The notes below the pieces were generated by a model, which was given only the letters and a program-made list of their open reading frames with translations, made no database searches and was not told where the DNA came from. 64,000 nucleotides of DNA. It comes from an uncultured Ilumatobacter sp. GTDB lineage: Bacteria > Actinomycetota > Acidimicrobiia > Acidimicrobiales > Ilumatobacteraceae. Position 1 is the first letter of the stretch. Each line of letters opens with the position of its first letter. A program made the position numbers and the translations under genes. The stretch is from contig CAJJBX010000003.1 of assembly GCA_905182555.1 (NCBI GenBank), forward strand, positions 62,001 to 126,000. Reading direction: 5' to 3'. Below, one piece after another: positions 5,343 to 31,071 of this stretch.

Positions 5343-5346
5343 GACC

Positions 5347-5375
5347 GGTCACACTGTGCCTGGCACAGTGTGACC
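5347..5375. repeat. Interspersed palindrome, copy 1
   Basis: A perfect inverted repeat with 14-nt arms (GGTCACACTGTGCC and its complement) and a single central base. Its 27-bp core has arms GTCACACTGTG / CACAGTGTGAC around the centre CCTGG, and it recurs at 18843-18869 and 31023-31049. This copy lies between divergent genes and ends directly before the GTG start of the CoA-transferase. It could be an operator, an RNA hairpin in the leader, or a REP-like element. Confidence 0.9.
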
Positions 5376-6578
5376 GTGACATCTGAATCTGTTCGACCGG
5401 CCGGCCCACTCGATGGAGTGCGCGTGGTCGACCTCACCAGCGTGGTCATGGGCCCGCTTGCCACACGCATGCTTGGTGACATGGGTGCCGACGTGATCCG
5501 TGTCGAGACGCCAGACGGCGACATCATTCGACACTACGAGCCGGCCCGCAGCGCCATGATGAGCGCGTTCAGCCTCAACCTCAATCGCAACAAGCGCAGC
5601 GTCGTGCTCGACCTCAAATCCGACAGCGGCGCGGCAGCACTGCGTGACCTCGTTGCCACAGCTGACGTGTTCGTCACGACCATGCGACGGTCGGCGTTGA
5701 ATCGACTCGGGATCGATGACGCATCGATCCGGGCAATCAAGCCGAACATCATCACCTGCGTCGCCAACGGCTGGGGCAGCAACGGCCCGAACGCCGACAA
5801 AGCGGCCTACGACGATGTGATCCAAGCAGCGTCCGGTGTTGTCGACCTCTTCACGTACTCGGGCGGCGCGCCACAGTTGGTGCCATCGATCATCGCCGAC
5901 AAGGTCAGCGGCCTGCACATTGTCCCAGCAATCACCGCCGCGCTGTACCGGCGTGCAATGACGGGCGAGGGTGATTCGATCGAGGTTCCAATGGCCGAGG
6001 TCATGGCATCCTTCAACCTGGTCGAACACCTTGGTGGCTCGACTTTCGAACCACCGGTTGGCGAGTTCAGCTATCCACGAATCACCACACCGAATCGGCG
6101 CCCCCGCCAAACCGCCGACGGCTGGGTTGTCCTGCTCCCCTATACCGACGCCAACTGGCGTGACTTCTTCGGCTTCGTCGGCCGATCCGAGCTCGCCACC
6201 GATCCGCGATTCGCCGAGCAGCGTTCGCGCATCGCCAACTCCGGTGAGCTCTACGGCATGCTCGACGAGATGGTCGCTGACCTGCCAACGGCCGCGCTGC
6301 TCGACTTCTGCGACAGCCGGTCGATACCGGCATCAGCGGTCCTCGACTTGGAACACATCGCCGACGATCCGCACTTCAAGGCCATCGACCTCTTGCACGA
6401 CGACGAGCACCCGACCGAAGGTGCCTACCGCTACACCCGCGATCCAATCCGATTCGCGAGTCGCGGCGACGACCACGAGACCGTGCGACTGCATGCGCCG
6501 GGCCTCGGTGAACACACCGACAAGGTGATGGCTGAGCTTGGTTGGACCAGCGATCAGATCGCCACGTTGCATCCCTGA
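5376..6578 (+). CDS. CaiB/BaiF-type CoA-transferase (family III)
   Basis: A 400-aa family III CoA-transferase that moves CoA between carboxylic acids. The start GPLDGVRVVDLTSVVMGP, the segment ADVIRVETPDGD, NRNKRSVVLDLKS and the catalytic-region GEGDSIEVPMAEVMASF are all family-typical. GTG 5376 gives the usual length; GTG 5370, inside the palindrome, is an alternative, and the frame upstream carries no conserved sequence. The adjoining SDR runs the same way, 93 nt on, suggesting a joint role in degradation of a CoA-activated carboxylic acid. The substrate is unknown. Confidence 0.9.
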   Translation: MTSESVRPAGPLDGVRVVDLTSVVMGPLATRMLGDMGADVIRVETPDGDIIRHYEPARSAMMSAFSLNLNRNKRSVVLDLKSDSGAAALRDLVATADVFVTTMRRSALNRLGIDDASIRAIKPNIITCVANGWGSNGPNADKAAYDDVIQAASGVVDLFTYSGGAPQLVPSIIADKVSGLHIVPAITAALYRRAMTGEGDSIEVPMAEVMASFNLVEHLGGSTFEPPVGEFSYPRITTPNRRPRQTADGWVVLLPYTDANWRDFFGFVGRSELATDPRFAEQRSRIANSGELYGMLDEMVADLPTAALLDFCDSRSIPASAVLDLEHIADDPHFKAIDLLHDDEHPTEGAYRYTRDPIRFASRGDDHETVRLHAPGLGEHTDKVMAELGWTSDQIATLHP

Positions 6579-6671
6579 CGGCCGGGCTGCCGAGATACCG
6601 AGATCAGAAAGGTCGTCGGGCCGGGCACCAGCGTTGGGGCTCAGCAGCGCAGTGCGACTAGACCCTTGCGG

Positions 6672-7518
6672 ATGGAGAATCTGAACGGTAAGACAGCAGT
6701 GATCACCGGTGGTGCAAGTGGCATCGGTCTGGCGATGGCCCACCGGTTCGGCGCTGCGGGCATGAACCTCGTGATCGGCGACATCGAAGTTCCCGCGATG
6801 GAATCAGCGGTGACCGAACTGACCGCTTCCGGCTACCAGGTCGTCAGCCTGCAGGTCGACGTTCGCGACATCGAGCAGCAGCGCGAACTCGAACGAATCG
6901 CCATCGAAGCTTTCGGCAACATCCACGTGCTGTGCAACAACGCCGGTGTGGGCGCAGGCGGCCCGGTCGCCGACCCCGACAACCTTGAGGTCTGGCGCTG
7001 GACCATCGACATCGATCTGTGGGGCGTTATCTACGGCTGCAAGGTCTTCCTTCCTGCGATGATCGCGCACGGCGAGCCGTGTCACGTGGTGAACACCGCC
7101 TCGATGGCTGGCCACGGATCGGCCCCGTTCATGGGGGCGTACAGCGTTGCCAAGTACGGCGTCGTCGCCCTGTCCGAGACGTTGACCAAGGAGATGCAGA
7201 TTGCCGGGAACGACGTTGGGGTGTCGGTACTTTGCCCCGCCTTCGTGGCAACCGGCATCGCCAAGAGCGACCGCAACATGCCCGACGATCTGTCATGCTG
7301 TACCGGCCAGCACCCCAGTATCCGGGGGGATGCAGTCAATGATTGAATCGTTGGTCGCAAACGGCATTGCGACCAACGTCGTCGCTGACGCAGTCCACGA
7401 TGCCGTCATCGAGAACAAGTTCTGGATCCTCACCCACGACGAAACCAAGCCGGGCGTGCTCGAGCGGGCCCAGCAGATCGTTGATGGCCTCAACCCTGGC
7501 CTCGGCGGGTTTCTCTAG
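6672..7518 (+). pseudogene. Short-chain dehydrogenase/reductase, frameshifted near 7290-7320
   Basis: A classical SDR NAD(P)-dependent oxidoreductase. It has TGGASGIG near residue 12, NNAGV at about 93, NTAS at about 140 and the catalytic YSVAK at about 155. The frame from ATG 6672 ends at 7346 with an unrelated tail. The expected C-terminal part (MIESLVANGIATNVVADAV to GLGGFL, ending at 7518) continues in another frame. One small indel between about 7290 and 7320 restores a protein of about 281 aa. Active-site residues are intact, so either the assembly is wrong or the gene broke recently. Confidence 0.85.
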
Positions 7519-7542
7519 CGCAACTCTGTCGACGACAAGAAT

Positions 7543-7585
7543 CTCGGGACGCATTGCGGCGGAATGCGCTGCGTCATGTCCCGAG
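7543..7585. terminator. Candidate bidirectional terminator
   Basis: CTCGGGAC (7543-7550) and GTCCCGAG (7578-7585) form an 8-bp GC-rich stem between the convergent SDR and cysC ends, with GCATT/AATGC able to pair inside. There is no clear T-run, so it may act as a simple hairpin. Confidence 0.4.
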
Positions 7586-7626
7586 GTTGCTGCGACAGTT
7601 CATTCCTTGAGCGCCGAGACCTCCGG

Positions 7627-8112
7627 TCAGCTGATGAGGCCGCCCGCACGAAGCGCGGCGATGATCTGATCAGCTGCTTCTTCTGCTGACAGCACCGTGG
7701 TGTCGACATGGACCTCCGGTGACTCCGGAGCTTCATAGGGCGAGTCGATCCCGGTGAAGTTGGCCAATTCACCGGCGCGGGCCTTGGCATACAGGCCCTT
7801 CGGGTCGCGCGTTTCAGCAACATCGAGCGGCGTGTCGACGTGCACTTCGATGAACTCGCCCACCTCCACTCGCTCTCGGGCTAAACGGCGTTCTGCCCGG
7901 AACGGCGAGATGAATGACACGAGGACCAGCAGACCGGCGTCGACCATCAGGCCCGACACTTCAGCAATCCGGCGGATGTTCTCCACACGGTCTGCATCGG
8001 TGAAACCGGGGTGCACACAGACCGGTGCCCATGTAGGTCGTGCCGTAGAGCGCGGGGAAGATCGGAGAGTTGCGTGTGGCGTTGTAGAAGAGCGTCGACT
8101 TGCCGGAGCCGG
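7627..8112 (-). pseudogene. cysC: Adenylylsulfate kinase (CysC) domain of a CysN-CysC fusion, frame broken
   Basis: APS kinase phosphorylates adenylylsulfate to PAPS. The intact C-terminal part reads [49 protein letters not shown] and FTGIDSPYE, all family hallmarks. The P-loop GLSGSGKST is visible at about 8090-8115 only after restoring one missing base. The stretch between the P-loop and GFTDADR (about 8010-8090) is shorter than usual and does not match the LDGDNVRHGL region. It continues the CysN reading, as in bifunctional CysNC proteins. The kinase is probably non-functional as written. Confidence 0.75.
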
Positions 8113-9515
8113 AGGCCGGTCAGCCAGACGACGCCCGGCCGATGGTTGTTCTGATCAGCGCGGGCTGCTTTGTCAACACGAACGTCTTGCCAGTGGATGT
8201 TGTGGCTGCGCCGAAGTGCAAAGTGCAACATGCCGGCACCCACAGTGTTCTGAGTGCGTTTATCGATGATGATGAAAGAGCCCGTATCACGGTTTTCCGC
8301 ATAGGGGTCGAACGGAACTGGCCGGTCGAGGCTGAGGTTGCACACGCCAATCTCGTTCAGTTCAAGCGTGTTGGCGGCGAGGTGTTCCAGCGAGTTGACG
8401 TCGACCCGGAACTTCGGATTCGCAATGGTCACGCCAACGGTGCGGGTGCCAAGCTTCATCAGGTAGGGGCGGCCGGGCAACATCTCGTCTTCGTGCATCC
8501 ACACGACGTGCGCCTCGAACTGGTCGGAGACTTCGGCTGGCTGATCAGCGATGCACAGAAGATCGCCGCGGCTGACATCGATCTCGTCGGCGAGTGTGAT
8601 GGTGACTGACTGGCCAGCGACGGCAACGGCGAGGTCGCCATCCATCGTGACAATGCGGTCGACCGTGCTGGTCGTGCCAGCAGGAAGCACCCGGACGGTG
8701 TCACCCGGCCTGATAGAACCGCCGACGATCCGGCCGGAGAACCCGCGGAAGTCGAGGTTGGGGCGATTGACCCACTGAACGGGCATGCGGAAGGGTCCAG
8801 CAGCAACGACATCATCGACGGGAACTTCTTCGAGGTACGTCATCAGCGTGGAACCGTCGTACCAGGGAGTGTGCTCGCTGTGGGCAACAATGTTGTCGCC
8901 CTTCAGCGCTGAAACCGGAATGAAGTTGACGCTCGCCAGGCCGACCTCGCGTGCGAAGTCGGAGTACTCCGTGACGATCGTGTCGTAGATCTCTTGCGAG
9001 TAGTCGACGAGATCCATCTTGTTGATCGCGACGACAACCTCTTTGATCCCGAGCAGCGACACCAGGTAGCTGTGCCGTCGGGTCTGGGTGAGCACGCCCT
9101 TTCGGGCATCAACCATCACGACTGCGACGTCAGCAGTTGACGCTCCGGTAACCATATTGCGCGTGTACTGCTCGTGGCCCGGCGTGTCAGCCACGATGAA
9201 CTTCCGCTTCTCGGTCGAAAAGAATCGGTAGGCGACGTCAATCGTGATGCCTTGCTCACGTTCGGCCGTCAAGCCGTCGAGCAGCAGGGCAAAGTCGAGA
9301 TCGGTGCCCTGGGTTCCAACCTTGGCCGAATCGACCTCGAGTTGGGCGAGGTGGTCTTCAAACACCATGTGTGACTCGTACAGCAAGCGCCCGATCAACG
9401 TGCTCTTGCCGTCGTCAACGCTGCCACACGTGATGAAACGCAGGAGTGATTTGTACTGGTGCGACGTCAGGTACTCGTCGATGTCAACGGCGATCAGATC
9501 AGAAACATGCGCCAT
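7947..9515 (-). CDS. cysN: Sulfate adenylyltransferase subunit 1 (CysN part of CysNC)
   Basis: The GTPase subunit of ATP sulfurylase, which drives adenylylsulfate formation together with CysD. It has the G1 loop GSVDDGKST (31-39), [26 protein letters not shown] (G3) and NKMD (G4), followed by the two EF-Tu-like barrel domains. True CysN sequence runs to about 8120; the remaining codons down to 7947 are an out-of-frame tail caused by a lost base at the start of the APS-kinase domain. It overlaps the cysD stop by one base (TAATG), so the pair is translationally coupled. Confidence 0.92.
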
Positions 9516-10429
9516 TAGAAGTACCCCTCTTGCTTCTTCTTCTCCATCGAGCCAGCGGAATCGCTGTCGATCAACCGGCCTTCGCGCTCAGACGTCGTGG
9601 CGAGCAGCATCTCTTGGATGATGCCCGTGAGGCTGTCGGCGTCGCTCTCGATGGCTCCCGACAACGGGTAGCACCCGAGCGTACGGAACCGCACGTTTTT
9701 GATCTCAGGCTCTTCGCCCAGCTCAAACTGAAAGCGATCGTCGTCGATCATGATCAACGTGGGGCCGCGGTGCACGACCGGCCGAGGTGCTGCGTAGTAC
9801 AACGGCACGATCGGTATCTGCTCGAGGTGGACGTACTGCCACACGTCGAGTTCGGTCCAGTTCGAGATCGGAAACACGCGGAGCGTTTCACCCGAGCTGC
9901 GACGTGCGTTGTAGATCTGCCAGAGCTCGGGGCGTTGGCGCTTGGGATCCCACTGGTGCTGAGCGGAGCGAACCGAGAACATGCGCTCTTTGGCCCGCGA
10001 CTTCTCTTCGTCGCGCCGCGCTCCACCGAAGCAAAGGTCGAAGTTGTTCGATTCGATGACCTGCTTTAACCCGTCGGTCTTCCACATGTCGGTGTGCATC
10101 GCGGAGCCGTGGTCGAATGGGTTGACACCGCGTTCGATGCACTCTGGATTCTTGTGGACAATCAGATCGACGCCGAGGTCTTTGGCCGTCTGGTCGCGGA
10201 AGGCGTACATCTCGCTGAACTTCCACGTCGTGTCCACGTGAACGAGCGGGAAGGGCGGCTTCGAAGGGTAAAAGGCCTTCATCGCAAGGTGCAGCATGAC
10301 TGAGCTGTCCTTGCCGACCGAATACAACATCGCTGGGTTGTCGCTCTCGGACACTGCCTCGCGCATGATATGTATGGCCTCGGCTTCAAGCCGCTGCAAA
10401 TGCGTTAACTGATTCTCTACTAAATCCAC
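9515..10429 (-). CDS. cysD: Sulfate adenylyltransferase subunit 2 (CysD)
   Basis: The PP-loop ATP pyrophosphatase subunit of ATP sulfurylase, making adenylylsulfate from ATP and sulfate. The start [16 protein letters not shown], the PP-loop [17 protein letters not shown], the [16 protein letters not shown] segment and the C-terminal EKKKQEGYF are all diagnostic. GTG 10429 gives the usual length of about 304 aa; a TTG at 10465 would add 12 non-conserved residues. It sits directly after an Rrf2 regulator gene and before cysN. The arrangement indicates a sulfate-assimilation operon for cysteine synthesis. Confidence 0.93.
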
Positions 10430-10479
10430 GGACAATACCGTAAACTGCGAAACGTTCCGGTGCAAGCACCAATTTCAAC

Positions 10480-10971
10480 TCAGCGCGGATTGCGGGGATG
10501 GCGTCGATCCGTCGTCGTTCGGTAGTCGGCCGCAAGCGATACGACATCGGCCGGCAAGTTGCCACTGATGAGGTCGTCGAGGCTGACCTCTTCGAGCACG
10601 CGCCGCAAGCTGCCGCGAATCGCCATCCACACTTCAGACAGCGACTCGGCCGGTGCCGGATACCTGAGCCCCCGAAGGCTCTCGTCATGCACATCCGCCA
10701 GCGGGCCATCCACTGCGCGGAACACGTCAGCGAGCGAGATGGCGTCTGCATCGCGCGACAGCGTGAAACCCCCCGTCGGTCCGCGCTTGGACCGAATCAG
10801 CTCGGCACGTTTCAGATCGCGCGTGATGTCGAGCAAATACTTGAGTGAAATCCCCTGGCGCGTCGCGATCGCCTCGGCCTTGACCGCGCCACCGTCAACG
10901 TCAGCCAGTTCACCCGAGGCCAGTTCGGCCATAAACCGCACCGCATTGTCGACTCGCTCAGAAATCCGCAT
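10480..10971 (-). CDS. Rrf2-family transcriptional regulator
   Basis: A 163-aa winged-helix regulator beginning MRISERVDNAVRFMAELAS, with the recognition region AIATRQGISLKYLLDITRDLKRAELI and the wing SKRGPTGGFTLSR, as in Rrf2/IscR/CymR proteins. I see no three-cysteine cluster of the IscR type, so it is unlikely to carry an Fe-S centre. It precedes cysD on the same strand, pointing to control of sulfate assimilation by a sulfur metabolite. ATG 10971 was chosen because the upstream frame encodes the tail of a decayed oxidoreductase. Confidence 0.9.
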   Translation of the reverse strand: MRISERVDNAVRFMAELASGELADVDGGAVKAEAIATRQGISLKYLLDITRDLKRAELIRSKRGPTGGFTLSRDADAISLADVFRAVDGPLADVHDESLRGLRYPAPAESLSEVWMAIRGSLRRVLEEVSLDDLISGNLPADVVSLAADYRTTTDRRHPRNPR

Positions 10972-11039
10972 CGTCGGGAACGGTATCGCGGGACTCGCCA
11001 CCGGTCGGCAGCGGCGATTGCCACTACAACTAACAAGCC

Positions 11040-11335
11040 CGCAACGAAGGAACCCTGCGGCCATCTGAGACCGAAACTCCACAATTCGGCAAGTCTTCAG
11101 GTCTTCGTACCCTCGGATGACATCGGGGAGGGCAGTAATGCTGATCGCTCCGTCGATCAGGCGGGCTACAACGAGCTCTCTACCATCGGCATCGGCATCG
11201 GCATCTGCATCTGCATCTGCAGCGCCCAGGGGAACTCCTCGGCCAGGCCCGCTTCAGCACGACGCATCTGATTCCGACCAAACGGATCAAGTCGGGTACC
11301 GCCCAGCCGTTTTGCGGACCACAGCGCCACAAAAA
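11040..11335 (-). pseudogene. Remnant of the C-terminus of an indolepyruvate ferredoxin oxidoreductase-type enzyme
   Basis: This 364-nt gap (10972-11335) has no intact gene. Read leftward it encodes AKRLGGTRLDPFGRNQMRR and, in another frame, ALPDVIRGYEDLK followed by FRSQM. These match the C-terminal domain of single-chain indolepyruvate (2-oxoacid) ferredoxin oxidoreductases, which usually end with LDPFGYT..RR.E and LP..IRGYE.VK. A hexanucleotide repeat (11184-11219) and a frame change separate the two pieces. Nothing of the much larger N-terminal part is present, so it is a gene stump rather than a functional gene. Confidence 0.6.
11184..11219. repeat. Hexanucleotide tandem repeat
   Basis: Three CATCGG units followed by three CATCTG units (36 nt). 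It lies inside the oxidoreductase remnant, where it would encode alternating Gln/Pro and Met on the minus strand, and probably arose by slippage. Confidence 0.95.
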
Positions 11336-12202: not shown

Positions 12203-12319
12203 GGCCCCATCATCGCTCAGACCACCCGAAATGGAGACAATCTCGCATCGCTAATGCAGCATTTCAGTCCACATTTCGGGCGAATGCACTGACGGATGGG
12301 TTCGGTCAGCGGGCCCTGA

Positions 12320-14636
<2,317 letters not shown>

Positions 14637-14640
14637 CGGT

Positions 14641-16218: not shown

Positions 16219-16311
16219 GGTGACATGCTGCCAGAACGGAATCGGCCCGCTCGACACGTAGGTAACCCCACCCGGCCACAGGCGAGCCGGTCGTCTGTCC
16301 CAGCACCAGCG

Positions 16312-18747
16312 TTACGTGAGCATGATCTGGTCGGAGCGGTCGAGGCTGGCGAGGTCGTTCGACTGGATGGCCGTGGGCGACAGCGTCCACAGGTTGCCGT
16401 CAATAACGATCGTTCGCTGAATCGCTGACTCGTAGCCGTTCCAGTTCGGCCAGCACAGCTCGAAGCGCTCAAAACCGGCGGTGTCAATGTCGAGTTGCTC
16501 GGCGGAAACGCCCCACCAGTCTTCGAGCTCACCGACTGGCACTGGGTTACAGAACAGGCCGGTTGAGCCGCCCTGATCTTGAGCCGTGCAGAGCTGAATT
16601 TGGCCGCCTTGCTGACCGATCCAGAAGAACTCGCTGTCCTGCCCAAACTGCGAGCCATCAACGACTTCGCAATCGGTCTGCCCGTTGGGGGTGTCGTCGT
16701 CTTCAACGTGGCTGATGCGACCCTGTTCGGTGATCCCGTCGGCAGTCACGTTCAACACGATGGCGCCTGCAAACTGGTCTCTATACGACTGGAGTGGGAG
16801 CACGGCCGTGTTGGTCGGCCCCCACCAGAGGAACGCACGGTGGTCGAACTGCGCATCGCTGAAGCCGTTCGGCAACGTCCACACGTCGATCTCGCGCGGG
16901 TTGGTCGGATCGCTCACGTCGAAAAGCGACACCTTGGTACCGGTTGTTCGACCGTCGTCGGTTGCGTCTTGACCGACACCGATCACGAGGTCGTTGCTGA
17001 TCGGATGCAAGTAGTTTGAGAAACCTGGGATCTTGAGTTCGCCCTGCACAACCATATTGCGAGGGTCGCTGAGGTCGATCACGTAGAAGGGGTCGACTTG
17101 GCGGAATGTCACGACGTAGGCGGTGTCATCGACGTAGCGAACCGAGAAGATGCGTTCGCCAAGCCCGAGACCGCCGACGCTACCGATCTGTTCGAGTTGA
17201 TCACCGTTGACCTCCATCGAGACGATTTGGCTCTCTGATGATTCGGTCCACGGTGCGCCCTTCGTGGTCGCCACGAAGAAGACACCGTCACGATCATTCA
17301 TCGAGAATTGATTGAGCAGGTGTCCCTCGACGGAGCCCGATGCCTCGTACCGGGCGGCACCGGGTCCAGCGATCGAGAAGCGGTGAATTGCGGTCTGGTA
17401 GTTCTCGCTGATCTGGTCGTTGATGGTCGGCGTCCAAATGTTGGTCGAGACGTACATGCGATCTTGCGATGCGTAGACGGTGTCGCCCGTGGCCATCACG
17501 CTGCTCGTACCCGTGGGCGCAGCGAGGTCGGCGCCGAGGTCAAGCGTGACAATCGAGAGCATGTCGAAACCACCGAATTCGGCGGGGGCAAACACACTGG
17601 CGCAATCAACGAGTTGCCCCTCTTCGGCGCTGCCGTCGTTGCGGTCGATGCGGAACTCTGGCAACCAGTCCTTCTCGGTTGAATTGCGGACGACCTCACG
17701 ATTCGTCTCTTCGGCCTTCTGTTCGGTGCCCGGATTCGATGGGTAAAGAAAGCCGAGGTCCTGAGGCGGCGAGGTGACAACGATTCGGGCCGTGTCGCCG
17801 ATCGAGCGGGCACTGATGTAGCGGCCATCGATGCTCATCGTGTTGACCACCGCCGGTGCGGCGGGGTTCGACAGATCAACCTCGATGATCAGCGTCTGCG
17901 GGCCCAGGTAGGAGTCCGGCCCGACCGGGCCGCCGATCGGAAAATCAGGCTCGACCGGAATTGGTTCCTCTTCGGGTGCCGGCGCAATTTCAACGAAATC
18001 GGCTTCGGCATCGGTGAAGGCCGGCTCGGCATAGCCGCCATAAAAATCTCCTTGCGCAAACACGAACGCCCGGTCGCCAGCGAGAAAGATTTCGTGACCG
18101 TAGGTGTACGACCCGTTCTGACCATTGAGGGCAACCGAACCACGCTTGGTTCCCGTCACGCCATCTTCAGCGATGTCGATGTAGTGGAGCACCTCGCCCG
18201 CAATCGCGATGATGCGGTCGCCATCATTTTTCACGATGTCGGGCTCGTCGACACCGTCGACCTGCACGTTCGTCGTGGAGTACGTGCCGTCACCACCGCC
18301 ACCTTCGCTCGTCGCTAGCTCAGCAGTCGGGACGCTGGCTTTGCCGGTTGACACCGTGTTGGTTGAAGCCGCTTCTGTGGCGGCAGGTGCATCCTCTTGC
18401 GCCGAGGCCTCGAAGACACGATCGTCAAAGAGACCGGGGAAACCGTCGTTGCCAAATCCGTAGGGCCCGACGCGGTCGGCACCGTCAGTGTGGACGTAGT
18501 CGAGGAAGGCCGAACAGTCACCAAACTGCTGCAGCGCGGCGGGGGCGAAGCCGACCGGACCCTGATTGGCGCTGTCCGGGTCAGTCGATGGCGGCTCGAC
18601 ATCCGAACCGGTTCCTGGCGGAGTCCCAGCAGCCGACGTCATCGGGACAGCGGAACTTTGTGTTGACTCATCAACTGATCCAGTACTGGTACACCCCGCA
18701 GTGACGAGAGCAAGGGCGATGAGTGGGAGTCCAATCGTGCGCTTCAT
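16312..18747 (-). CDS. Secreted beta-propeller lipoprotein (PF09826-like)
   Basis: An 811-aa exported lipoprotein. The signal peptide MKRTIGLPLIALALVTAGC has a lipobox Cys at 19, followed by a Ser/Thr/Pro-rich linker. The diagnostic VQVDGVDEPDIVKNDGDRI is that of the bacterial beta-propeller domain family also seen in copper-amine-oxidase-fused proteins. Repeats such as TAYVVTFRQVDPFYVIDLSDP and HPISNDLVIGVGQ continue to the C-terminus. ATG 18747 fits the signal peptide; a GTG at 18840 would add 31 residues with no signal-peptide character. The function is unknown; it probably acts at the cell surface. Confidence 0.85.
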   Translation of the reverse strand: MKRTIGLPLIALALVTAGCTSTGSVDESTQSSAVPMTSAAGTPPGTGSDVEPPSTDPDSANQGPVGFAPAALQQFGDCSAFLDYVHTDGADRVGPYGFGNDGFPGLFDDRVFEASAQEDAPAATEAASTNTVSTGKASVPTAELATSEGGGGDGTYSTTNVQVDGVDEPDIVKNDGDRIIAIAGEVLHYIDIAEDGVTGTKRGSVALNGQNGSYTYGHEIFLAGDRAFVFAQGDFYGGYAEPAFTDAEADFVEIAPAPEEEPIPVEPDFPIGGPVGPDSYLGPQTLIIEVDLSNPAAPAVVNTMSIDGRYISARSIGDTARIVVTSPPQDLGFLYPSNPGTEQKAEETNREVVRNSTEKDWLPEFRIDRNDGSAEEGQLVDCASVFAPAEFGGFDMLSIVTLDLGADLAAPTGTSSVMATGDTVYASQDRMYVSTNIWTPTINDQISENYQTAIHRFSIAGPGAARYEASGSVEGHLLNQFSMNDRDGVFFVATTKGAPWTESSESQIVSMEVNGDQLEQIGSVGGLGLGERIFSVRYVDDTAYVVTFRQVDPFYVIDLSDPRNMVVQGELKIPGFSNYLHPISNDLVIGVGQDATDDGRTTGTKVSLFDVSDPTNPREIDVWTLPNGFSDAQFDHRAFLWWGPTNTAVLPLQSYRDQFAGAIVLNVTADGITEQGRISHVEDDDTPNGQTDCEVVDGSQFGQDSEFFWIGQQGGQIQLCTAQDQGGSTGLFCNPVPVGELEDWWGVSAEQLDIDTAGFERFELCWPNWNGYESAIQRTIVIDGNLWTLSPTAIQSNDLASLDRSDQIMLT

Positions 18748-18842
18748 GTTGTATTCGACGTTGTCAGATCCACCACGGTTCCCGGGGGACCCAACTTCGT
18801 GGCTCCTGGACGAAAACACCGTCTCGTCGTCTTTCGCCACCG

Positions 18843-18869
18843 GTCACACTGTGTCAGGCACAGTGTGAC
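18843..18869. repeat. Interspersed palindrome, copy 2
   Basis: Arms GTCACACTGTG and CACAGTGTGAC (11 bp, perfect) around the centre TCAGG, identical in design to copies 1 and 3. It lies between the divergent lipoprotein and enoyl-CoA hydratase starts, 27 nt before the hydratase ATG. This placement fits a regulatory site better than a terminator. Confidence 0.9.
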
Positions 18870-18895
18870 GGCGCTCATCTGTCAGGCTTGGACAC

Positions 18896-19748
18896 ATGGG
18901 ACACACCTGTTTTGACGTCGAGATCACCGACAAGGTCGGCCACATCACGATGAACCGGCCCGAAAAGGCCAATTCGATGATCGCCGAGTTCTGGAACGAA
19001 CTGCCTGAGATCGTCCACGAGATGTCGGCATCCGGTGCCGTGCGCGCCGTGGTGCTGTGCGAGCGAAGGCCGGCACTTCTGCTCGGGCATGGACCTCTCG
19101 GTCTTCAGCGCGTCAGGGTCCGATGTGGGACCAGCGGCCAGCGGCGGCAAGCACACCAGTCGGCGCGGCGAACGGTTCCGCTCGACAGCAATGAAGCTGC
19201 AGGATTCCTTCACTGCACTCGAGCGAGCACGGAACCCGCGAGGGCTGCGCTCGCAAGGCGCCTGCGTCGGCGGTGGTATCGACATGGTGTCGGCTGCTGA
19301 TCTTCGGTACGCCTCCGAGTCGGCCTACTTCTGTATCGCCGAGATCAACATCGGTATGACCGCTGACGTCGGCACGCTGCAACGCATGCCGCGACTCGTT
19401 CCCGAAGGCATCGTGCGCGAACTCGCCTACACCGGCCGAAAATGGAGCGCCGCCGAAGCCCTTGCTGCTGGCTTCGTCAACAAGGTCTACGCCGACCACG
19501 AGCAGTTGATCTCGGGTGTCCACGAGATCGCCGCGGAGATCGCGTCGAAAAGCCCGATGGCCGTCTGGGGCACCAAGAAGTCGATGCAGTACAGCCAAGA
19601 GCATTCGATTGCCGACGGGCTCGACCACATCGCCACCTGGAACGCCTCGATGTTTGACACCGACGACATGGCCGAGGCGTTCGCTGCGCAGACGGAAAAG
19701 CGCGATGCAGACTTCCCTGACCTCTGGGCGCAATCACGCGGCCTCTGA
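18896..19748 (+). pseudogene. Enoyl-CoA hydratase/isomerase, frameshifted near 19062
   Basis: A crotonase-family protein hydrating 2-enoyl-CoA. ATG 18896 opens HITMNRPEKANSM, the usual start. After VRAVVL the frame is lost at about 19062, where one extra base (TGCG for TCG) shifts SEGRHFCSGMDL into another frame. That frame then carries the oxyanion segment QGACVGGGIDMVSAADLRYAS and the rest to 19748. Just before it, NPRGLRS replaces the expected KPV.AA., so a second compensated shift is likely. The corrected product is about 284 aa. It is divergent from the lipoprotein gene. Confidence 0.85.
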
Positions 19749-19765
19749 GCCTCGGACTCGGAGCG

Positions 19766-20062: not shown

Positions 20063-20100
20063 TGCAGCGACCGTAGCTTTGCTCAGGTCAGTCAGGTCAC

Positions 20101-20345: not shown

Positions 20346-20368
20346 TCGGCACTCGCGACACTGGTGTC

Positions 20369-22073: not shown

Positions 22074-22104
22074 CGGCTCACCACACGACTTGGGAATCGG
22101 CTGG

Positions 22105-22815: not shown

Positions 22816-22840
22816 CTGATTCCGCCGTAGAGGTTTACGA

Positions 22841-23326: not shown

Positions 23327-23424
23327 ACACAGAGTGTCCCACGCGGAGGCGAGTTGCACACCGGCCGGTCCGATTCGTTCCTGCCCGTCGCAAAGCCTGT
23401 CGAATCCGCCGTCTGTCTGTCGGC

Positions 23425-23874: not shown

Positions 23875-23954
23875 TCGCCGAGTCTGGCAAACCGCTGCCC
23901 CCGGTTACGGCCCGAGCTGCCGGTTGTTGACCAACGACCGGCCAGACTCTCATC

Positions 23955-24998: not shown

Positions 24999-25026
24999 CT
25001 GCGCGCTTCTGACCCGAGGGAAATGC

Positions 25027-25707
25027 TCAGGGGAGGGATACAGCGAAGGAGGCGATGATGTCGGCAACTTCGCTGGCGTGGGTGTCTTCGTGCATCGAGT
25101 GCCCACCACCGTCGAGCACAACCAGGCGCGCCTCAGGCATCTTGCGTTCGAGGTACTGACCAGAACCTTGATACTCGGGGCGGTCATCGCCGCCCGCGAG
25201 CACGATGGTCGACGTCGTGATGTCGCCAAGCCGATCCATCACGACTGAGTCGTGCTGCAGGTTCAGGTCGGTGACACGCTCTGGAACACCGAATCGGTGG
25301 GCGTTGCGACGTGAGCGGGTATTCCAGCCTTCGCGCTTGTCCGGGTCACGAAAGCCGGGCCCGGTGTTGATTGCCACGACGCCACGCACTGCGTTCGGGC
25401 GCGTCGCCGCATGGGCGAGCGCCAGGTAGCCGCCGAGCGAATGGCCAACGAGGACGGCTCGGCCGTCGTCTTTGGCCGGGCCGACGATGTCGGCCAAGGC
25501 GGCATCACGGGTGAACGCTTCGGGGTCGTCATCTGGGCACGGTGAGTCGCCGTGGCCGGGCAGGTCGATCGCAATCGTCAGGTACCGATCTGCCAACGCT
25601 TCGGCGCATGCATCCCAACTGTGGGCAGAGGTTCCGAGCCCATGGATGAAGACAATGGGCACGCCGCCGCCCTCTGTTGGTCCGCGTCGAATCGTGTTGA
25701 GTTGCAC
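25027..25707 (-). CDS. Alpha/beta-fold hydrolase
   Basis: A 226-aa hydrolase with PIVFIHGLGTSAHSWD (oxyanion region), AIDLPGHGDSPCP, the elbow VGHSLGGYLAL, the acid region VLAGGDDRPEY and the catalytic His in GGGHSMHED. GTG 25707 (MQLNTIRRG) was chosen because the frame further upstream is antisense to the thioesterase gene. It resembles 3-oxoadipate enol-lactonase and non-haem peroxidase-type hydrolases, but the substrate is open. Confidence 0.87.
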   Translation of the reverse strand: MQLNTIRRGPTEGGGVPIVFIHGLGTSAHSWDACAEALADRYLTIAIDLPGHGDSPCPDDDPEAFTRDAALADIVGPAKDDGRAVLVGHSLGGYLALAHAATRPNAVRGVVAINTGPGFRDPDKREGWNTRSRRNAHRFGVPERVTDLNLQHDSVVMDRLGDITTSTIVLAGGDDRPEYQGSGQYLERKMPEARLVVLDGGGHSMHEDTHASEVADIIASFAVSLP

Positions 25708-25747
25708 GAGGAGAACGTAGCGACCATTCTCCTCTACGCTCGGATCG

Positions 25748-26197
25748 GTGAGCAAACAGCACGAGGCTTCTATCGACCACGACCCGGCATTGGCTGCGTC
25801 GATCACCGAGGCGTTTGCCGCAGGTGGGTCCGGGTTGATGGCCGGCTTTGGGCTCCACATCGTCGCTGCCGAACCGGGGCGCGTGCGCTTCGAACTCAAT
25901 GTCGTCGAGCGCCTCACGCATGGCGGCGGTGTGCTGTCGGGGCAGGCAATCCTGGGCTGCATGGACACCGGCATGGTCTTTGTAATGATGTCGCTGCGCC
26001 CCGACGCCGATGTCGGCTTCACGACGGTGTCGCTCGCCACCAACTTCGAGCGAGGGGTGCCAGAAGATGTCGGCACGGTCACGTTCGAGGCCTGGGCCAC
26101 AAAGCCAGGCCGATCGCTCGTGTTCGGCCAGATCGACCTCGTCCTGCCGAATGGCAAGCGCGCCGCGAGCGCCACGACCACCTACATGTGGCTGTAA
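25748..26197 (+). CDS. PaaI-type hotdog thioesterase
   Basis: A 149-aa single-hotdog protein. LTHGGGVLSGQAILGCMDTGMVFVMM matches the catalytic helix region of PaaI/4-hydroxybenzoyl-CoA thioesterases, in which the HGG turn precedes the helix. The strand VSLATNFERGVPEDVGTVTFEAWATKPGRSLVF follows. It probably releases CoA from aryl- or acyl-CoA. The start is GTG 25748, 40 nt from the divergent hydrolase gene. Confidence 0.86.
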   Translation: MSKQHEASIDHDPALAASITEAFAAGGSGLMAGFGLHIVAAEPGRVRFELNVVERLTHGGGVLSGQAILGCMDTGMVFVMMSLRPDADVGFTTVSLATNFERGVPEDVGTVTFEAWATKPGRSLVFGQIDLVLPNGKRAASATTTYMWL

Positions 26198-26302
26198 TTT
26201 CGGTCGTCGTTGCGAGAACACAATAAAACTCGCTCACCGCTGTGCTGCGGACGCGAAACTGGCGTTGGCGGGAACCTCGATCTGCGAGCCCGTTGTCTGG
26301 CA

Positions 26303-26710
26303 TCAGGTGGCCTCGACGAACTCCACCCAGTTGCCGTCCGGATCCTCGACCATGCCGATGCGGATGCCCGGCCGGATCTCCGACGCCGGCACGACCACGT
26401 TGACGTCGGCGGCAGCACACTCGGCGAGAATCTCATCAAGGTTCGAGACGATCAGGGTGAGGTATCGAAATCCGAGGCCACCGGCGATGCCGCCGGGCGG
26501 CGAGCGCGGCGGGGTCGCGGTGAGGTTGACCAACTTGATGACCGTGTCGCCGCACTGCAAACGGTGCATCGTCCCATCGCCACCAATGGGCATCGGCATG
26601 TCGCCAACGTGCTCGAGGCCAAGGAGGCCGACATAGAACGCGAGCGAACGTTCGCTCTGTTCGATCACAATGCCGAGATCGATGGCGGACTTGGCAAGTT
26701 GTACAGGCAT
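26303..26710 (-). CDS. VOC-family (glyoxalase-like) protein
   Basis: A 135-aa vicinal-oxygen-chelate protein with two beta-alpha-beta-beta-beta modules. LGIVIEQSERSLAFYVGLLGLEHVGD opens the first, and RYLTLIVSNLDEIL, then GIRIGMVEDPDGNWVEFVEA, form the second, with the terminal Glu as a likely metal ligand. Such proteins include glyoxalase I, dioxygenases and resistance proteins. Upstream lie 105 nt (26198-26302) in which I see no gene. Confidence 0.87.
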   Translation of the reverse strand: MPVQLAKSAIDLGIVIEQSERSLAFYVGLLGLEHVGDMPMPIGGDGTMHRLQCGDTVIKLVNLTATPPRSPPGGIAGGLGFRYLTLIVSNLDEILAECAAADVNVVVPASEIRPGIRIGMVEDPDGNWVEFVEAT

Positions 26711-26719
26711 TCCCGGAAG

Positions 26720-28129
26720 CTACGCGATCAGCAACACTGGGACATGTTGGTACTGCGGGTTCACAGCTTCGAGAGCTGACGCGACTTCGAGGAGCGCGCG
26801 ATCGTTACCGACTTGCGCCACCAGTTGCAGCCCAACGGGAAGGCCTGCGGAGGTGAACCCTGCTGGCAAAGACAGCGCCGGGCAACCGGTCGGCGTGATG
26901 GCGCAGCAGGTCGTCATCCATTCGAGGTAGTCGGCCATCGCGACGCCATCGATCTCCATCGGGAACTCGGTTTCAACGGGAAATGGTGCGACCTGTGCAG
27001 CCGGCAGGGCGAGCACGTCGTATTCATCAAAGAACTTTGTCATCTCGACGTGGAGCCGCGCGCGTAATGCTTCTGCCCGTAACACGTCGTCGGTGGTGAT
27101 CGACAAACCAAACTCGATGTTCTCGACCACAGTGGCCTTCATCAGTGACCACCGATCACGGGGAATTGCTTGACCGAGTTGGCGGTAGGCCAGGCCTCGC
27201 AGCGTGCGGAAGATCTGCATTGATGCCGACAGGTCGGGGGCTGCTTCGGTGAACGTGCCCCCGGCTGTTGTGATCTGTTTGGCTGCCTTGCGGCAGAGGT
27301 CGAGTACTTCGGCTTCCGCGGTAAACAACCCGAAGTCACCACCCCAGGCCAGGCGCGCCGAGGTCGTTGTCGGGAGCGGAGCCCGGAAGGTCGCCGGGTC
27401 GTCAGCAAGCGACAGCGGGTCGTCGGCCCGGGGCCCGGCGAGCGCACTGAGGAGTAGCGCTGTATCGGCCACGGTTCGCCCCATCGGGCCGCGCACACTC
27501 AGCCGCACCAGGTGAGTAGAAGTCGACGTCGCAGCGGACTGGGCCACTCGCCCGATCGTCGGTCGGAGGCCGACCACGTTGCAGAAGGCTGCAGGGTTGC
27601 GCAGTGAGCCGCCGAGGTCGCTGCCGTCGGCGATGGGCAACATCCGGCTGGCAAGGGCTGCCGCCGCGCCACCACTGCTCCCGCCCGCCGACTTCGACAG
27701 ATCCCACGGGTTCCGAGTCACACCAAACACTTCGTTAAACGTGTGCGAGCCGGTGCCGAACTCGGGTGTGTTGGTCTTTCCTATGATAATCGCCCCGGCG
27801 GCACGGAGTTGCGCCGCGATGAAACCGTCAGCCGCTACCGGACGGGTGCTCGTCACCAGTGAACCCGACCGTGTCGGAAGCCCAGCAACGTCTTCCAAAT
27901 CCTTCACTGCTACCGGCAGGCCGTGCAGCGGCCCCGTCGGTTTTTGGGCGTCGGCCGCGTCGGCGTCGGCGAGCACGTCGGCACGGTCGCGCATCGACAC
28001 GATGGCGTTGACCTGTGGGTTGACCTGATCGATTCGGTCGAGGTGAGCAATCACCACGTCACGCGCCGACAGCTCTCGCGACCCGAGTAGGTCGGCCAGT
28101 TCAACGGCGGTGTGATCGACAATCTCCAT
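26720..28129 (-). CDS. Amidase (amidase signature family)
   Basis: A 469-aa Ser-Ser-Lys amidase hydrolysing carboxamides to acid and ammonia. It has GLPVAVKDLEDVAG with Lys76, SAGGSSGGAAAALAS with Ser151 and IADGSDLGGSLRNPAAFC with nucleophile Ser175. ATG 28129 gives the standard start (MEIVDHTAVELADLLGSRELSA); the open frame upstream overlaps a promoter gap. It is 9 nt from the VOC gene on the same strand, so the two may be co-transcribed. Confidence 0.92.
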   Translation of the reverse strand: MEIVDHTAVELADLLGSRELSARDVVIAHLDRIDQVNPQVNAIVSMRDRADVLADADAADAQKPTGPLHGLPVAVKDLEDVAGLPTRSGSLVTSTRPVAADGFIAAQLRAAGAIIIGKTNTPEFGTGSHTFNEVFGVTRNPWDLSKSAGGSSGGAAAALASRMLPIADGSDLGGSLRNPAAFCNVVGLRPTIGRVAQSAATSTSTHLVRLSVRGPMGRTVADTALLLSALAGPRADDPLSLADDPATFRAPLPTTTSARLAWGGDFGLFTAEAEVLDLCRKAAKQITTAGGTFTEAAPDLSASMQIFRTLRGLAYRQLGQAIPRDRWSLMKATVVENIEFGLSITTDDVLRAEALRARLHVEMTKFFDEYDVLALPAAQVAPFPVETEFPMEIDGVAMADYLEWMTTCCAITPTGCPALSLPAGFTSAGLPVGLQLVAQVGNDRALLEVASALEAVNPQYQHVPVLLIA

Positions 28130-28232
28130 CGGCCCATCCTGGCAGTCGAACGGTCGGCTGCTTCGACGCCAGGCGGTGATCCTCAACAGCTTCGATGCAC
28201 TTCTGGCAGCGCGGGGCGGCCATGCTGACGCG

Positions 28233-29138
28233 ATGGACATCGGTATTTTCTCAGGCGTTGCGAGTAGCGGCGGATTCAGCTCGATCGTGGCGGACGCAGC
28301 AGCGTCGGCCGAAGCAGGGTTCGACACCTACTGGCTCCCGCAAATCGTGCAACAGGCTGAGGCGATGAACATCATCGGCGCCGCTGCACAAACGGTTCCG
28401 AACATTCGCTTCGGAACATCGGTGGTCCCGACCTACCCTCGCCACCCAATGGTCATGGCCGAGCAGGCCCAAACCACCAGCATGATCACTGGCGGCCGTT
28501 TCACCCTCGGCATCGGCCTCTCCCACAAGCCGGTGGTCGAAGGCATGTGGGGCCACTCGTTCGACAAGCCGCTCCGCCACGCCCGCGAATACCTCGAAGC
28601 GCTCATGCCACTCGTACGCGGCGAAGGCGTCAGCTTCGCCGGCGAAACCCTCACCGCCCGCGGGCAGCTGGCAATCAACGCCCCTGAATCTCCGGTGCTG
28701 CTTGCCGCACTCGGCCCGCAAATGTTGAAGCTCGCTGGTGAGCGTTGCGGCGGCACCATCACGTGGATGACCGGCGCGAAGACGCTCAGCGAACTCACCG
28801 TGCCCACGATCAGCGAAGCAGCATCAAACGCCGGGCGCGAGACGCCACAGGTCGTTGCTGGCATGCCGATTTGGGTGACCGACGACGTCGACGCAGCGCG
28901 CGCCAATGCCGCCAAGACGTTCCTGATCTACGGCCAGCTTCCGTCGTACCGTGCAATGCTCGACCGCGAGGGCCTCGGCGGCCCCGAAGACCTCGCCATC
29001 ATTGGCGACGAGGCAACCTGCGCGGCGCGGCTCGACGAACTCGCCGCCGCCGGTGTTACCCAGCTCGCGGCATCAGAGTTCGCCTCGGACCCCGAAGGTC
29101 GGGCCCGCACCCGTGCATTCCTCGCCAGCCGCCTCTGA
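28233..29138 (+). CDS. LLM-class (F420-dependent type) oxidoreductase
   Basis: A 301-aa luciferase-like TIM-barrel flavoprotein. MDIGIFSGVASSGGFSSIV is followed by AEAGFDTYWLPQ, IRFGTSVVPTYPRHP, MAEQAQTTSMITGGRFTLGIGLSH (a strong signature of the F420-type branch) and APESPVLLAALGPQMLKLAG. In actinobacteria such proteins generally use F420H2 or FMNH2 to oxidise or reduce small substrates. ATG 28233 was chosen at the start of the first beta strand. Confidence 0.88.
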   Translation: MDIGIFSGVASSGGFSSIVADAAASAEAGFDTYWLPQIVQQAEAMNIIGAAAQTVPNIRFGTSVVPTYPRHPMVMAEQAQTTSMITGGRFTLGIGLSHKPVVEGMWGHSFDKPLRHAREYLEALMPLVRGEGVSFAGETLTARGQLAINAPESPVLLAALGPQMLKLAGERCGGTITWMTGAKTLSELTVPTISEAASNAGRETPQVVAGMPIWVTDDVDAARANAAKTFLIYGQLPSYRAMLDREGLGGPEDLAIIGDEATCAARLDELAAAGVTQLAASEFASDPEGRARTRAFLASRL

Positions 29139-29139
29139 G

Positions 29140-29424
29140 TCAGTAGCTGGCAGGCGTTAACTCGAGGGCCGCGCTGGCAATCGGTAGCCGCACGACGACG
29201 CAGTCGCCATGCACGTCGGTCGTCACGTCGGGGTGTCCAGTAATCCACCACATCCGCGGCTGCACGCCGACGATCCGGAACTCAGTCCAACCCGTTTGGT
29301 CGGTCACCGGCTCGACGTCGACATAGAGCGAACCGCCACGCCACCCGTGGCACACCACCGTGACCTTGCCGACTTCGACATCGCGAACGGCAGCCAGCTC
29401 GGAGTGTTCGGCGCGCTCCCTCAT
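29140..29424 (-). CDS. Hypothetical protein (94 aa)
   Basis: A compact 94-aa reading frame (VEVGKVTVVCHGWRGGSLYVDVEPVTDQTGWTEFRIV...) with alternating hydrophobic residues that suggest a small beta-rich domain. I recognise no family. It ends 1 nt from the convergent LLM gene. The 195 nt between its start and the flavoprotein gene (29425-29619) shows no further gene. Confidence 0.55.
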   Translation of the reverse strand: MRERAEHSELAAVRDVEVGKVTVVCHGWRGGSLYVDVEPVTDQTGWTEFRIVGVQPRMWWITGHPDVTTDVHGDCVVVRLPIASAALELTPASY

Positions 29425-29619
29425 GACAACTGCCTCATTGGTCGTCCAGTAATTTCAGCGCACGGAGCAGTGCGGTTTCAGCGAGATCCGTGCTCTGTTC
29501 GTCATGTATTGGCATGTAGTGGGAACCTCACCACGGCGAATGTAGCGCGTGCCAGTTGCCCAATGTGGTGGCCCACGGCTGTGGCAGGATGACGGATCGA
29601 TCTCGAACGGGGCACCACC

Positions 29620-31020
29620 ATGGCGACAGAACTTGCGACTGACTATCTGATCGTCGGGAGCGGGGCCGTCGGCATGGCGTTCGCCGACGTGATCATCAGC
29701 GAGACCGACAAGAACGTCGTCATCATCGACCGATTCGCTAAGCCCGGTGGCCACTGGAACAGTGCGTATCCGTTTGTCACGCTGCACCAGCCGTCGCAGT
29801 TCTACGGGGTGAGTTCGCGTGAGCTGAGCAAAGGTCGGATCGACGAAGTTGGCCTCAACCGCGGCCTCAGCGACCTGGCCAGCGGTGCCGAGGTCAGTTC
29901 CTACTACGACGACGTGATGCGCCACACGCTGCTGCCGACGGGCCAGGTGCGCTACTTCCCCATGTGCGACTACCGCGGCGATGGCAATTTTGAACACAAG
30001 CTTTCCGGCGAGCACTTCCACGTCACGCCGCAAATGACGGTCGACTGCACTTACCTCAACACGACGGTGCCCTCCACGCACACGCCGAACTTCGAAGTTG
30101 GCGTAGGCGTGCAGTTCATGCCACTCAATGACCTCCCAAAACTTGAGCACGCTCGCGCTGGCTACGTCGTCGTCGGTGGCGGCAAGACAGGAATCGATGC
30201 TGTCCTATGGCTGATCGATGTCGGCGTCGATCCCGATCAGATCACGTGGATCGTGTCACGCGATGCATGGCTCTTGAACCGCAAGAACGCTCAACCAGGT
30301 CTCGAGTTCTTCGAGAACACGATCGGCGCCCAGGCCAACCAGTTCGAAGCAATCGCCAGCTCAACATCCGTCGCCGACATGTTCGATCGGCTTGAAGCGT
30401 GCGGCTATTTCCTGCGGCTCGACACCGCCGTCCGCCCAACGATGTTCCACGCCGCGACCATCAGTGAACTCGAGCTCGCTGAGTTGCAACGCGTCAAGAA
30501 CATCGTGCGCATGGGCCGCGTCCAGACCATCAGTACCGACGAGATTGTGCTCGACGGCGGCACGGTACCGACGACTGCTGAGCATCTATTCATTGACTGC
30601 TCGGCATCGGCCATTTCCAACCTTGAGCCGAAGCCGATCTTTGAAGATGGCCTCATCACCCCGCAAACCGTGCGGAGCTACCAGCCAGCTTTTAGCGCCG
30701 CGTTTGTCGCACACATCGATGCGACCCGCGAGACCGTCGAGGAAAAGAATCACTTGTGCCAGGTTGTTCCCCTCCCGAACGCTGATCTCGACTACCTGAA
30801 GTTGACGTCGGCGTTCATGGTCAACCAGTTCAACTGGGGTCAGGACCCCGAGATCAAAGCATGGTTGTTGGCAAACCGCCTCGATGGATTCAGCCAGACC
30901 ATTGCTGCAGTTCCGAAAGACGACGAAGCCAAGATCGCGATCCTCCGCAAGCTCGGTGACAACGCATTCCCGGCGGTCGCCAAGCTCGGGGAATACATCG
31001 CCGAGTACGAGTCGGCCTAG
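29620..31020 (+). CDS. FAD/NAD(P)-binding oxidoreductase (flavin monooxygenase-like)
   Basis: A 466-aa two-dinucleotide-binding flavoprotein. The FAD motif is YLIVGSGAVGMAFADV near residue 9 and the first strand ends VVIIDRFAKPGGHWNSAYPFVTLHQPSQFYG, as in flavin-containing monooxygenase relatives. The second motif GYVVVGGGKTGIDAVLWL lies at about residues 184-201. It probably oxygenates or dehydrogenates a small molecule. The stop is followed 2 nt later by palindrome copy 3, then by the convergent HD-oxygenase gene. Confidence 0.86.
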   Translation: MATELATDYLIVGSGAVGMAFADVIISETDKNVVIIDRFAKPGGHWNSAYPFVTLHQPSQFYGVSSRELSKGRIDEVGLNRGLSDLASGAEVSSYYDDVMRHTLLPTGQVRYFPMCDYRGDGNFEHKLSGEHFHVTPQMTVDCTYLNTTVPSTHTPNFEVGVGVQFMPLNDLPKLEHARAGYVVVGGGKTGIDAVLWLIDVGVDPDQITWIVSRDAWLLNRKNAQPGLEFFENTIGAQANQFEAIASSTSVADMFDRLEACGYFLRLDTAVRPTMFHAATISELELAELQRVKNIVRMGRVQTISTDEIVLDGGTVPTTAEHLFIDCSASAISNLEPKPIFEDGLITPQTVRSYQPAFSAAFVAHIDATRETVEEKNHLCQVVPLPNADLDYLKLTSAFMVNQFNWGQDPEIKAWLLANRLDGFSQTIAAVPKDDEAKIAILRKLGDNAFPAVAKLGEYIAEYESA

Positions 31021-31022
31021 CG

Positions 31023-31049
31023 GTCACACTGTGCATGGCACAGTGTGAC
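31023..31049. repeat. Interspersed palindrome, copy 3
   Basis: The same 11-bp arms GTCACACTGTG / CACAGTGTGAC, with centre CATGG. It begins 2 nt after the flavoprotein stop codon and ends 22 nt before the stop of the convergent HD-domain gene. Here it could serve as a bidirectional terminator hairpin, unlike copies 1 and 2. Confidence 0.9.
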
Positions 31050-31071
31050 GCCTGGGACCGGCTCGGGTCTT

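Follow-up and report, generated by a model that had tools for sequence, protein, structure and literature searches.

A family of probably REP-like palindromes in Ilumatobacter shares its centre with hairpins beside Y1 transposase genes

Repetitive extragenic palindromic (REP) elements, in the broad sense, are palindromes of 20–40 bp found in many extragenic copies; more than 100 copies per genome are usual, according to the part of PMC2817692 available. Among the Y1 enzymes, subclass 2.1 is the second largest group and is found in 14.9% of strains; its members have DnaA_C-like or helix-turn-helix-like tails. No REP-like sequences are reported near subclass 2.1 genes, after automatic and manual searches, in the accessible part of PMC6006769, which probably equates the subclass with the TIRYTs of PMC3733652. 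Inverted repeats of TIRYTs often share the sequence GGGGWSAS, and some are self-complementary and repeated, as described in the available part of PMC3733652. We have analyzed a palindrome of 27 bp that marks the genome of an uncultured Ilumatobacter sp. It was found three times by a first-pass annotation in a stretch of 64,000 nucleotides (positions 62,001 to 126,000 of contig CAJJBX010000003.1, assembly GCA_905182555.1; hereafter the window), and either a REP-like family or the operator of a regulon had been suggested.

The repeats are probably REP-like palindromes of the same make as the hairpins beside Y1 genes of the TIRYT, or TnpA_Y1 subclass 2.1, type, and mobile via such an enzyme. Of the two earlier suggestions the REP-like one is favoured, because of the copy number, the restriction to one lineage, the placement at gene 3' ends, and a YCWGR centre common to hairpins flanking transposase genes. 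As judged from sequence, this centre would be the key link between the family and Y1 transposases. No literature was found on palindromic repeats together with transposases in Ilumatobacter; the REP literature found for actinobacteria includes nothing on Acidimicrobiia by title, and no study among the matches listed covers both REPIN/RAYT systems (RAYT, REP-associated tyrosine transposase) and Ilumatobacter or Acidimicrobiia.

The genome containing the window (G000) is a metagenome-assembled genome (MAG) of 2,558,616 bases in 26 contigs, 72.7% complete. The pattern GTCACACTGTG-N5-CACAGTGTGAC matches the window within 3 mismatches exactly three times, with no arm mismatch in any copy (Table 1). 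By chance a mean of 0.01 matches is expected, and none of 100 shuffles reached three, so that the identity of the arms noted at first sight is borne out. Throughout G000, 43 placements were found at up to 3 mismatches, 19 of them exact, and none with the reversed control pattern. Merging of overlapping or close placements left 40 sites, spread at irregular distances over 19 of the 26 contigs. The existence of further copies disfavours chance and a three-gene regulon, and the spacing of about 13 kb seen in the window is no period; both a fixed 13-kb spacing and a three-site regulon were rejected. The consensus, CGGTCACACTGTG-YCWGR-CACAGTGTGACCG, measures 31 bp, and no position outside these 31 bases is strongly conserved. 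In size and extragenic repetition the family thus fits the broad definition of REPs, at a number of sites lower than the usual one (PMC2817692, in the part available). The gene caller places 3 of the 40 sites inside a gene, and one of these (window copy 1) is a miscall. A known Rfam family was rejected, the Rfam scan at gathering thresholds having returned two tRNAs only.

In 38 isolated G000 placements the centre is CCTGG (13), CCTGA (9), TCAGG (7) or CCAGG (5), with four others found once each, and corresponds to YCWGR read in both orientations. The centres first reported for the window (CCTGG, TCAGG, CATGG) are correct; the statement that they always end in GG fails genome-wide, as in the CCTGA copies. 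One arm is reiterated in tandem at some sites (L027, L033, L036, L038, L040, L043). Palindromes turned into direct tandem repeats of one arm, in units of 9–14 bp, were observed at L036:4687, L040:2001 and L043:2001, and at L234 of genome G004; they look as if made by replication slippage at the hairpin.

Ten genomes of the genus (G000–G009) and 50 relatives from the family and order were searched. At up to 2 mismatches the repeat is present 27 times in a sister species (G004) and twice in G005, and is missing in the seven other congeners and in all 50 family and order relatives. A scan for the exact 23-bp core in contigs of 84,980 species, from which own or very near genome records may be omitted, returned 15 stretches, all in one uncultured Ilumatobacter MAG matching G004. 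The family is lineage-restricted, residing in G000, G004 and, as a variant, in G005. In the variant, arm base pair 6 is T:A instead of A:T in all 12 isolated copies (up to 4 mismatches; taken from places that BLAST turned up, not a full count); six of them also have a C:C or G:G mismatch at base pair 5. Comparison of L034 with L058 revealed one outer arm pair swapped on both sides. The flanks of 67 sites (40 from G000, 27 from G004) were compared as the first-pass annotation had advised, and define 19 orthologous pairs, including all three window copies. At the place of L041:2001, G005 has two hairpins: one in which two arm pairs have changed on both sides and, about 60 bp beyond it, another whose centre is inverted. 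G004 has a 14-bp direct tandem repeat of one arm there. Congener stretches around the genes next to the window copies (L190–L198, L180–L183), in which the exact intergenic place is not always covered, contain no YCWGR hairpin with arms of at least 4 bp, except for an unrelated one with 4-bp arms in L196.

Location relative to genes was determined with a simple codon-based caller, 5,832 intergenic placements in the window serving as null. The 40 G000 sites are 27 tandem, 8 convergent, 2 divergent and 3 in-gene, the miscalled one being really divergent; the 27 G004 sites are 14 tandem, 8 convergent, 4 divergent and 1 at an edge. A facing stop codon lies within 15 bp in 25/40 G000 sites, vs 8.5% of the null (binomial p 2e-17), and in 17/27 G004 sites, so that a preference for gene 3' ends is seen in both genomes. 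Divergent places make up 23% of the null, and their depletion is clear only in G000 (3/40, p 0.01). Hairpins mostly start 0–2 bases past the stop codon, in a space occupied by the terminating ribosome. Of the hairpin sides, only 1/76 in G000 and 1/52 in G004 have five or more T among the next 8 bases, and no terminator-like site with a T-run was called around copy 3 (30900–31200). The ordinary intrinsic terminator was rejected for lack of a U-tract, in keeping with the doubts voiced earlier about a simple terminator role. As most sites sit behind stop codons without U-tracts, both operators and ordinary terminators are argued against. The orientation of the loop relative to the adjacent gene showed no clear bias (CTG 10, CAG 14 in G000; CTG 10, CAG 6 in G004).

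The placement near stop codons also speaks for a functional RNA hairpin at gene 3' ends, a U-less terminator or 3' stabiliser that selection on transcripts would maintain, however it arose. Folds of −24 to −30 kcal/mol with arm pairing kept, and the pair L034/L058, which has a run of four or five T after the element and an outer stem kept by two-sided change, would suit such a role. We consider it unlikely, in that the primary sequence of arms and centre is kept beyond mere pairing, T-rich sides are as rare as said, the genes around window copies 1 and 2 are divergent, seven congeners lack the motif at 2 mismatches, and a start 0–2 bases past the stop falls inside the space of the terminating ribosome. 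An operator of a global transcription regulator, with a regulon of about 40 sites, would explain a perfect inverted repeat that is the size of an operator and conserved in its arms, and the divergent genes around two of the three window copies. It is quite improbable, given that most sites lie behind stops and few are divergent (3/40 and 4/27), that 7 of 9 congeners lack the motif at 2 mismatches, that tandem reiterations exist, and that conservation across families is highest in the centre, a part that should not matter to a dimeric regulator. A site for chromosome organisation (segregation, replication arrest, or binding of a nucleoid protein) would fit dispersed, near-identical intergenic copies, yet hardly deserves credence with 7/9 congeners and 50/50 wider relatives free of the motif at 2 mismatches, and with centres in mixed orientation.

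Two foot sequences are enriched in G000: TAGCG (TAGC at −5 in 10/76 feet) and TGACCG (TGAC at −6 in 6/76). The neighbouring stop codon accounts for part of this enrichment, but the same placements occur in 8/59 G000 feet without a called gene end, so that they may reflect either a preferred target or a foot carried by the element. GTAG lies within 8 nt of 9/80 feet in G000 and 5/54 in G004, above chance and partly due to stop codons, and GTGG within 8 nt of 3/80 and 1/54. Membership among the canonical GTAG REPs was rejected, as no GT[AG]G foot is conserved.

Y1 genes (PF01797) gave 16 hits in 8 of the 10 Ilumatobacter genomes, one of them in G000. Fifteen loci were examined (L108 was dropped, as the gene caller took the wrong open reading frame). 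In nine of the 15, perfect YCWGR-centred hairpins with arms of at least 4 bp lie near both gene ends, with arms other than those of the 27-bp family, and in all nine the centre reads CAG upstream and CTG downstream; three of these loci (L019, L096, L098) are one lineage and not independent. As background, the 64-kb window contains 9 YCWGR hairpins with arms of at least 4 bp. At five loci (L019, L096, L098, L101, L107) the downstream hairpin has the Y1 stop codon, TGA, in its centre. Arms differ between Y1 lineages and are alike for similar proteins, as in L101/L105 (76% identity), L107/L097 (68%) and L019/L098/L096; the G002 genes have other arms (TTCACG/CGTGAA). Outside the genus, hairpins of this type were found on both sides of the Y1 match at L168 (G016) and L167 (G058), on one side at L165, L172 and L173, and on neither at L166, L169, L170, L171 and L174.

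The sole Y1 hits of G000 and of G004 are flanked by GGGG-TCAGG-CCCC, which is in its own right a repeat dispersed in G000, G004 and G005. The RAYT-type transposase that had been asked about is therefore present in G000, but next to a different palindrome, and the G000 Y1 gene was rejected as bearer of the 27-bp one. Accordingly two repeat families reside in G000 and G004, one with an enzyme alongside and the 27-bp one without. The second repeat, GGGG-TCAGG-CCCC followed by CTTTCGCAACT, has many copies in G000, G004 and G005; it was also observed in the window (Table 1), at L041:3333-3372 and L036:515-560, and in L019 and L057. A further short motif, approximately CTGTGACACC, lies upstream of Y1 genes at L019, L101, L102, L104 and L105, after the upstream hairpin (alone in L104) and some 20–80 bases before the start codon. 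Other ends mark some Y1 loci: long inverted repeats GTCACAG...CTGTGAC at L106 (contig C240 of G005), and at L109 and L103 direct and inverted repeats of other kinds, with no YCWGR hairpin.

Fourteen Y1 proteins were aligned (L103 and L108 not included). All feature the HuH motif, together with Y---NP in 10 and Y---NA in 4. The eight proteins scanned all match the REP-associated tyrosine transposase model NF047646, below its cut-off (30–56 of 80 bits). A model of the G000 protein (mean pLDDT 84.2, pTM 0.63) has as best PDB match in Foldseek the REP transposase with its REP hairpin (4ER8, E 1.4e-6), followed by the IS608 and ISDra2 transposases; DnaA domain IV (1J1V) is a weak match, at rank 33 (E 0.031, TM 0.82 of the target domain). 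A PDB sequence search with one Y1 protein returned two weak hits only, one to a hypothetical transposase at E 0.09. For the Y1 tail, Pfam gave weak matches at a loose threshold, including HTH_17 at 0.0074, which were left out of the argument. The genus proteins are candidate members of subclass 2.1, as judged from motifs and published descriptions.

The core GTGYCWGRCAC was counted in all genomes against a reversed, equally palindromic control. Core and control numbers are 48/2 in G000, 177/5 in G001, 8/3 in G002, 143/5 in G003, 33/2 in G004, 42/5 in G005, 96/8 in G006, 128/2 in G007, 15/4 in G008 and 7/5 in G009, the last two being the congeners without a Y1 hit. Over the 60 genomes, a core excess of at least five-fold is found in 9/14 with a Y1 hit and in 5/46 without (Fisher p 1.7e-4), or in 9/11 and 5/49 (p 6e-6) if G050, G054 and G058, which have stronger IS200-model hits, are counted as negatives; these p values are indicative only, because threshold and split were set post hoc and the genomes are related.

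Several results weigh against mobility of the family by a Y1 enzyme of this type, besides the post hoc nature of the comparison just given. No Y1 gene flanked by the 27-bp palindrome was found in either carrier, at a completeness (73% for G000, 81% for G004) that makes the absence of a cognate Y1 not final. Six of the 15 Y1 loci do not have the full pair of hairpins: in L100, with just 87 bp of room upstream, a single side has one, and no YCWGR hairpin lies on either side at L095, L103, L104, L106 and L109 (2 bp of room downstream in L104). The core is in excess in only 2/3 genomes with Y1 outside the genus, vs 5/47 without; G002 and G027 have a Y1 hit and no excess, and G025, G028, G032, G037 and G051 a five-fold excess and no Y1 hit. 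Much of the spread is old, as 19 of the 40 sites are common to G000 and G004. Finally, none of the places compared proved to be a clean empty site whose borders could be read exactly. The element is absent from the place of copy 1 in G005, where the intergenic alignment is too diverged for borders to be read, and from those of L036:2001 and two L067 elements, which are poorly alignable gaps in G005; a search of G000 with L067 found only the elements themselves. Congener stretches around the genes next to the window copies (L190–L198, L180–L183), in which the exact intergenic place is not always covered, contain no YCWGR hairpin with arms of at least 4 bp, except for an unrelated one with 4-bp arms in L196.

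Signs of movement were found in the flanks of some copies. Copy L039:3467 of G000 has gene ends of two other loci in its flanks, with 66 bp matching L055 on one side and 87 bp matching L053 (100% identical) on the other. A single element is present at the orthologous place in G004 (L077), where 88 unmatched bases correspond to 541 in G000. L027 and L037 share an alignment of 91 bp (89%), about 60 bp of which are flank, and L051 and L052 have 29 bp of flank in common. Copies thus seem to have taken adjoining gene ends along or swapped them, either through transposition or because copies recombined with each other, with the proviso that G000 is a MAG and an assembly error is possible. The region L039:3001-3600 (contig C5 of G000) measures about 0.54 kb between and beside two elements, and includes a small open frame along with fragments of gene ends from two other loci.

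Features of the window are listed in Table 1. Copy 1 is a palindrome longer than 27 bp, close to the extended one first placed at 5347–5375. The gene context given earlier is correct: divergent genes border copies 1 and 2, and copy 3 follows a stop. Copy 1 directly precedes the CoA-transferase family III gene and is behind no called gene end; copy 2 separates the genes for a beta-propeller protein and a frameshifted enoyl-CoA hydratase; copy 3, between convergent genes, starts two bases past a TAG stop, with 22 bases separating it from the end of the HD-domain gene. The placements of copies 1 and 2 are atypical for the family, and the centre of copy 3 is an exception to YCWGR. The split of the hydratase gene is due to a frameshift or an assembly error.

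Table 1. Palindrome copies, neighbouring genes and second repeat in the window. RNA folds were computed with short flanks.
Feature	Coordinates	Strand	Description	RNA fold, kcal/mol (z)	Orthologue in G004
Copy 1	5346-5376	.	CGGTCACACTGTG-CCTGG-CACAGTGTGACCG, 31-bp perfect palindrome; pattern match 5348-5374	−26.4 (−4.9)	L068:733
Copy 2	18843-18869	.	27-bp palindrome, centre TCAGG	−24.2 (−3.5)	L073:2001, centre CCAGA
Copy 3	31023-31049	.	27-bp palindrome, centre CATGG	−29.9 (−5.1)	L063:1765
CoA-transferase family III gene	5376/5378-6578	+	next to copy 1		
Beta-propeller protein gene	16312-18840	−	next to copy 2		
Enoyl-CoA hydratase gene	18896-19748	+	next to copy 2; two frames, 18896-19300 and 19035-19748, both match ECH_1		
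Gene with TAG stop	29620-31020	+	next to copy 3		
HD-domain gene	31072-31626	−	next to copy 3		
GGGG-TCAGG-CCCC	1513-1525	−	second repeat, one exact core		

The family resembles REPtrons and REPINs in that short extragenic palindromes, in tens of near-identical copies, lie behind genes, and RAYT-like genes are linked to such hairpins in relatives. In contrast to canonical REP/RAYT systems, the GTAG/GTGG foot is not conserved, and a perfect palindrome has a conserved apex instead. Within what the available part of PMC3733652 describes, the genus Y1 proteins resemble those of TIRYTs (TIRtrons) in the HuH and mostly Y---NP motifs and, in the G000 model, in the weak match of the tail to DnaA domain IV. 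The same holds for the inverted repeats at both gene ends and their dispersed copies, the GGGG-TCAG of L019 fitting GGGGWSAS; unlike TIRYT repeats, the 27-bp family itself has no linked gene. In this it resembles the CGTC-tagged REPs, palindromic repeats without an identified dedicated transposase in that part of PMC3733652, but CGTC is near only 1/80 feet in G000 and 2/54 in G004. CGTC does begin some hairpins flanking genus Y1 genes (L105, L107). In contrast to subclass 2.1 as presented in the accessible part of PMC6006769, hairpins with a constant YCWGR centre and lineage-specific arms lie here beside the Y1 genes.

We file the family as REP-like in the broad sense, working presumably as the hairpins beside TIRYT-type genes, and not as a GTAG REP; it may belong to a particular REP/RAYT pair. 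The sequences themselves establish the number of copies, the hairpin, the confinement to one lineage, the location at gene 3' ends, a centre common to the transposase-flanking hairpins, and the joint occurrence of core counts and Y1 genes. Mobility and function of the family, its spread by such an enzyme and the mode of recognition are what we infer, along the following lines. The element folds into a hairpin on either strand; a RAYT-like Y1 (HUH) enzyme would bind the folded single strand, the conserved apex GTG-YCWGR-CAC being the shared recognition part and the outer stem the family-specific one. The element, itself non-autonomous, would be copied or moved by this enzyme. The copies that survive mostly follow a stop codon directly, and there the hairpin may incidentally also protect transcripts or end them. 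The cognate enzyme may have been lost or be encoded in DNA missing from the assembly; alternatively, a related enzyme may move the element in trans.

A broader proposal is plausible and is advanced tentatively. DnaA-tailed Y1 enzymes (subclass 2.1/TIRYT) might have REP-like sequences after all, in the form of hairpins with an apical YCWGR, a CWG triloop on a Y-R step, rather than with a GTAG foot. GGGGWSAS could be the same apex on a short GGGG/CCCC stem, and the 27-bp family an orphaned or trans-mobilised branch in Ilumatobacter and some relatives, carrying gene 3' ends between loci by movement or recombination. Natural hairpins with one centre and changing arms, next to the enzymes, would make substrate recognition directly testable. 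The repeats would also extend REP-like sequences to the Acidimicrobiia, and would explain a kind of palindrome in Actinomycetota that may be mistaken for an operator or a terminator.

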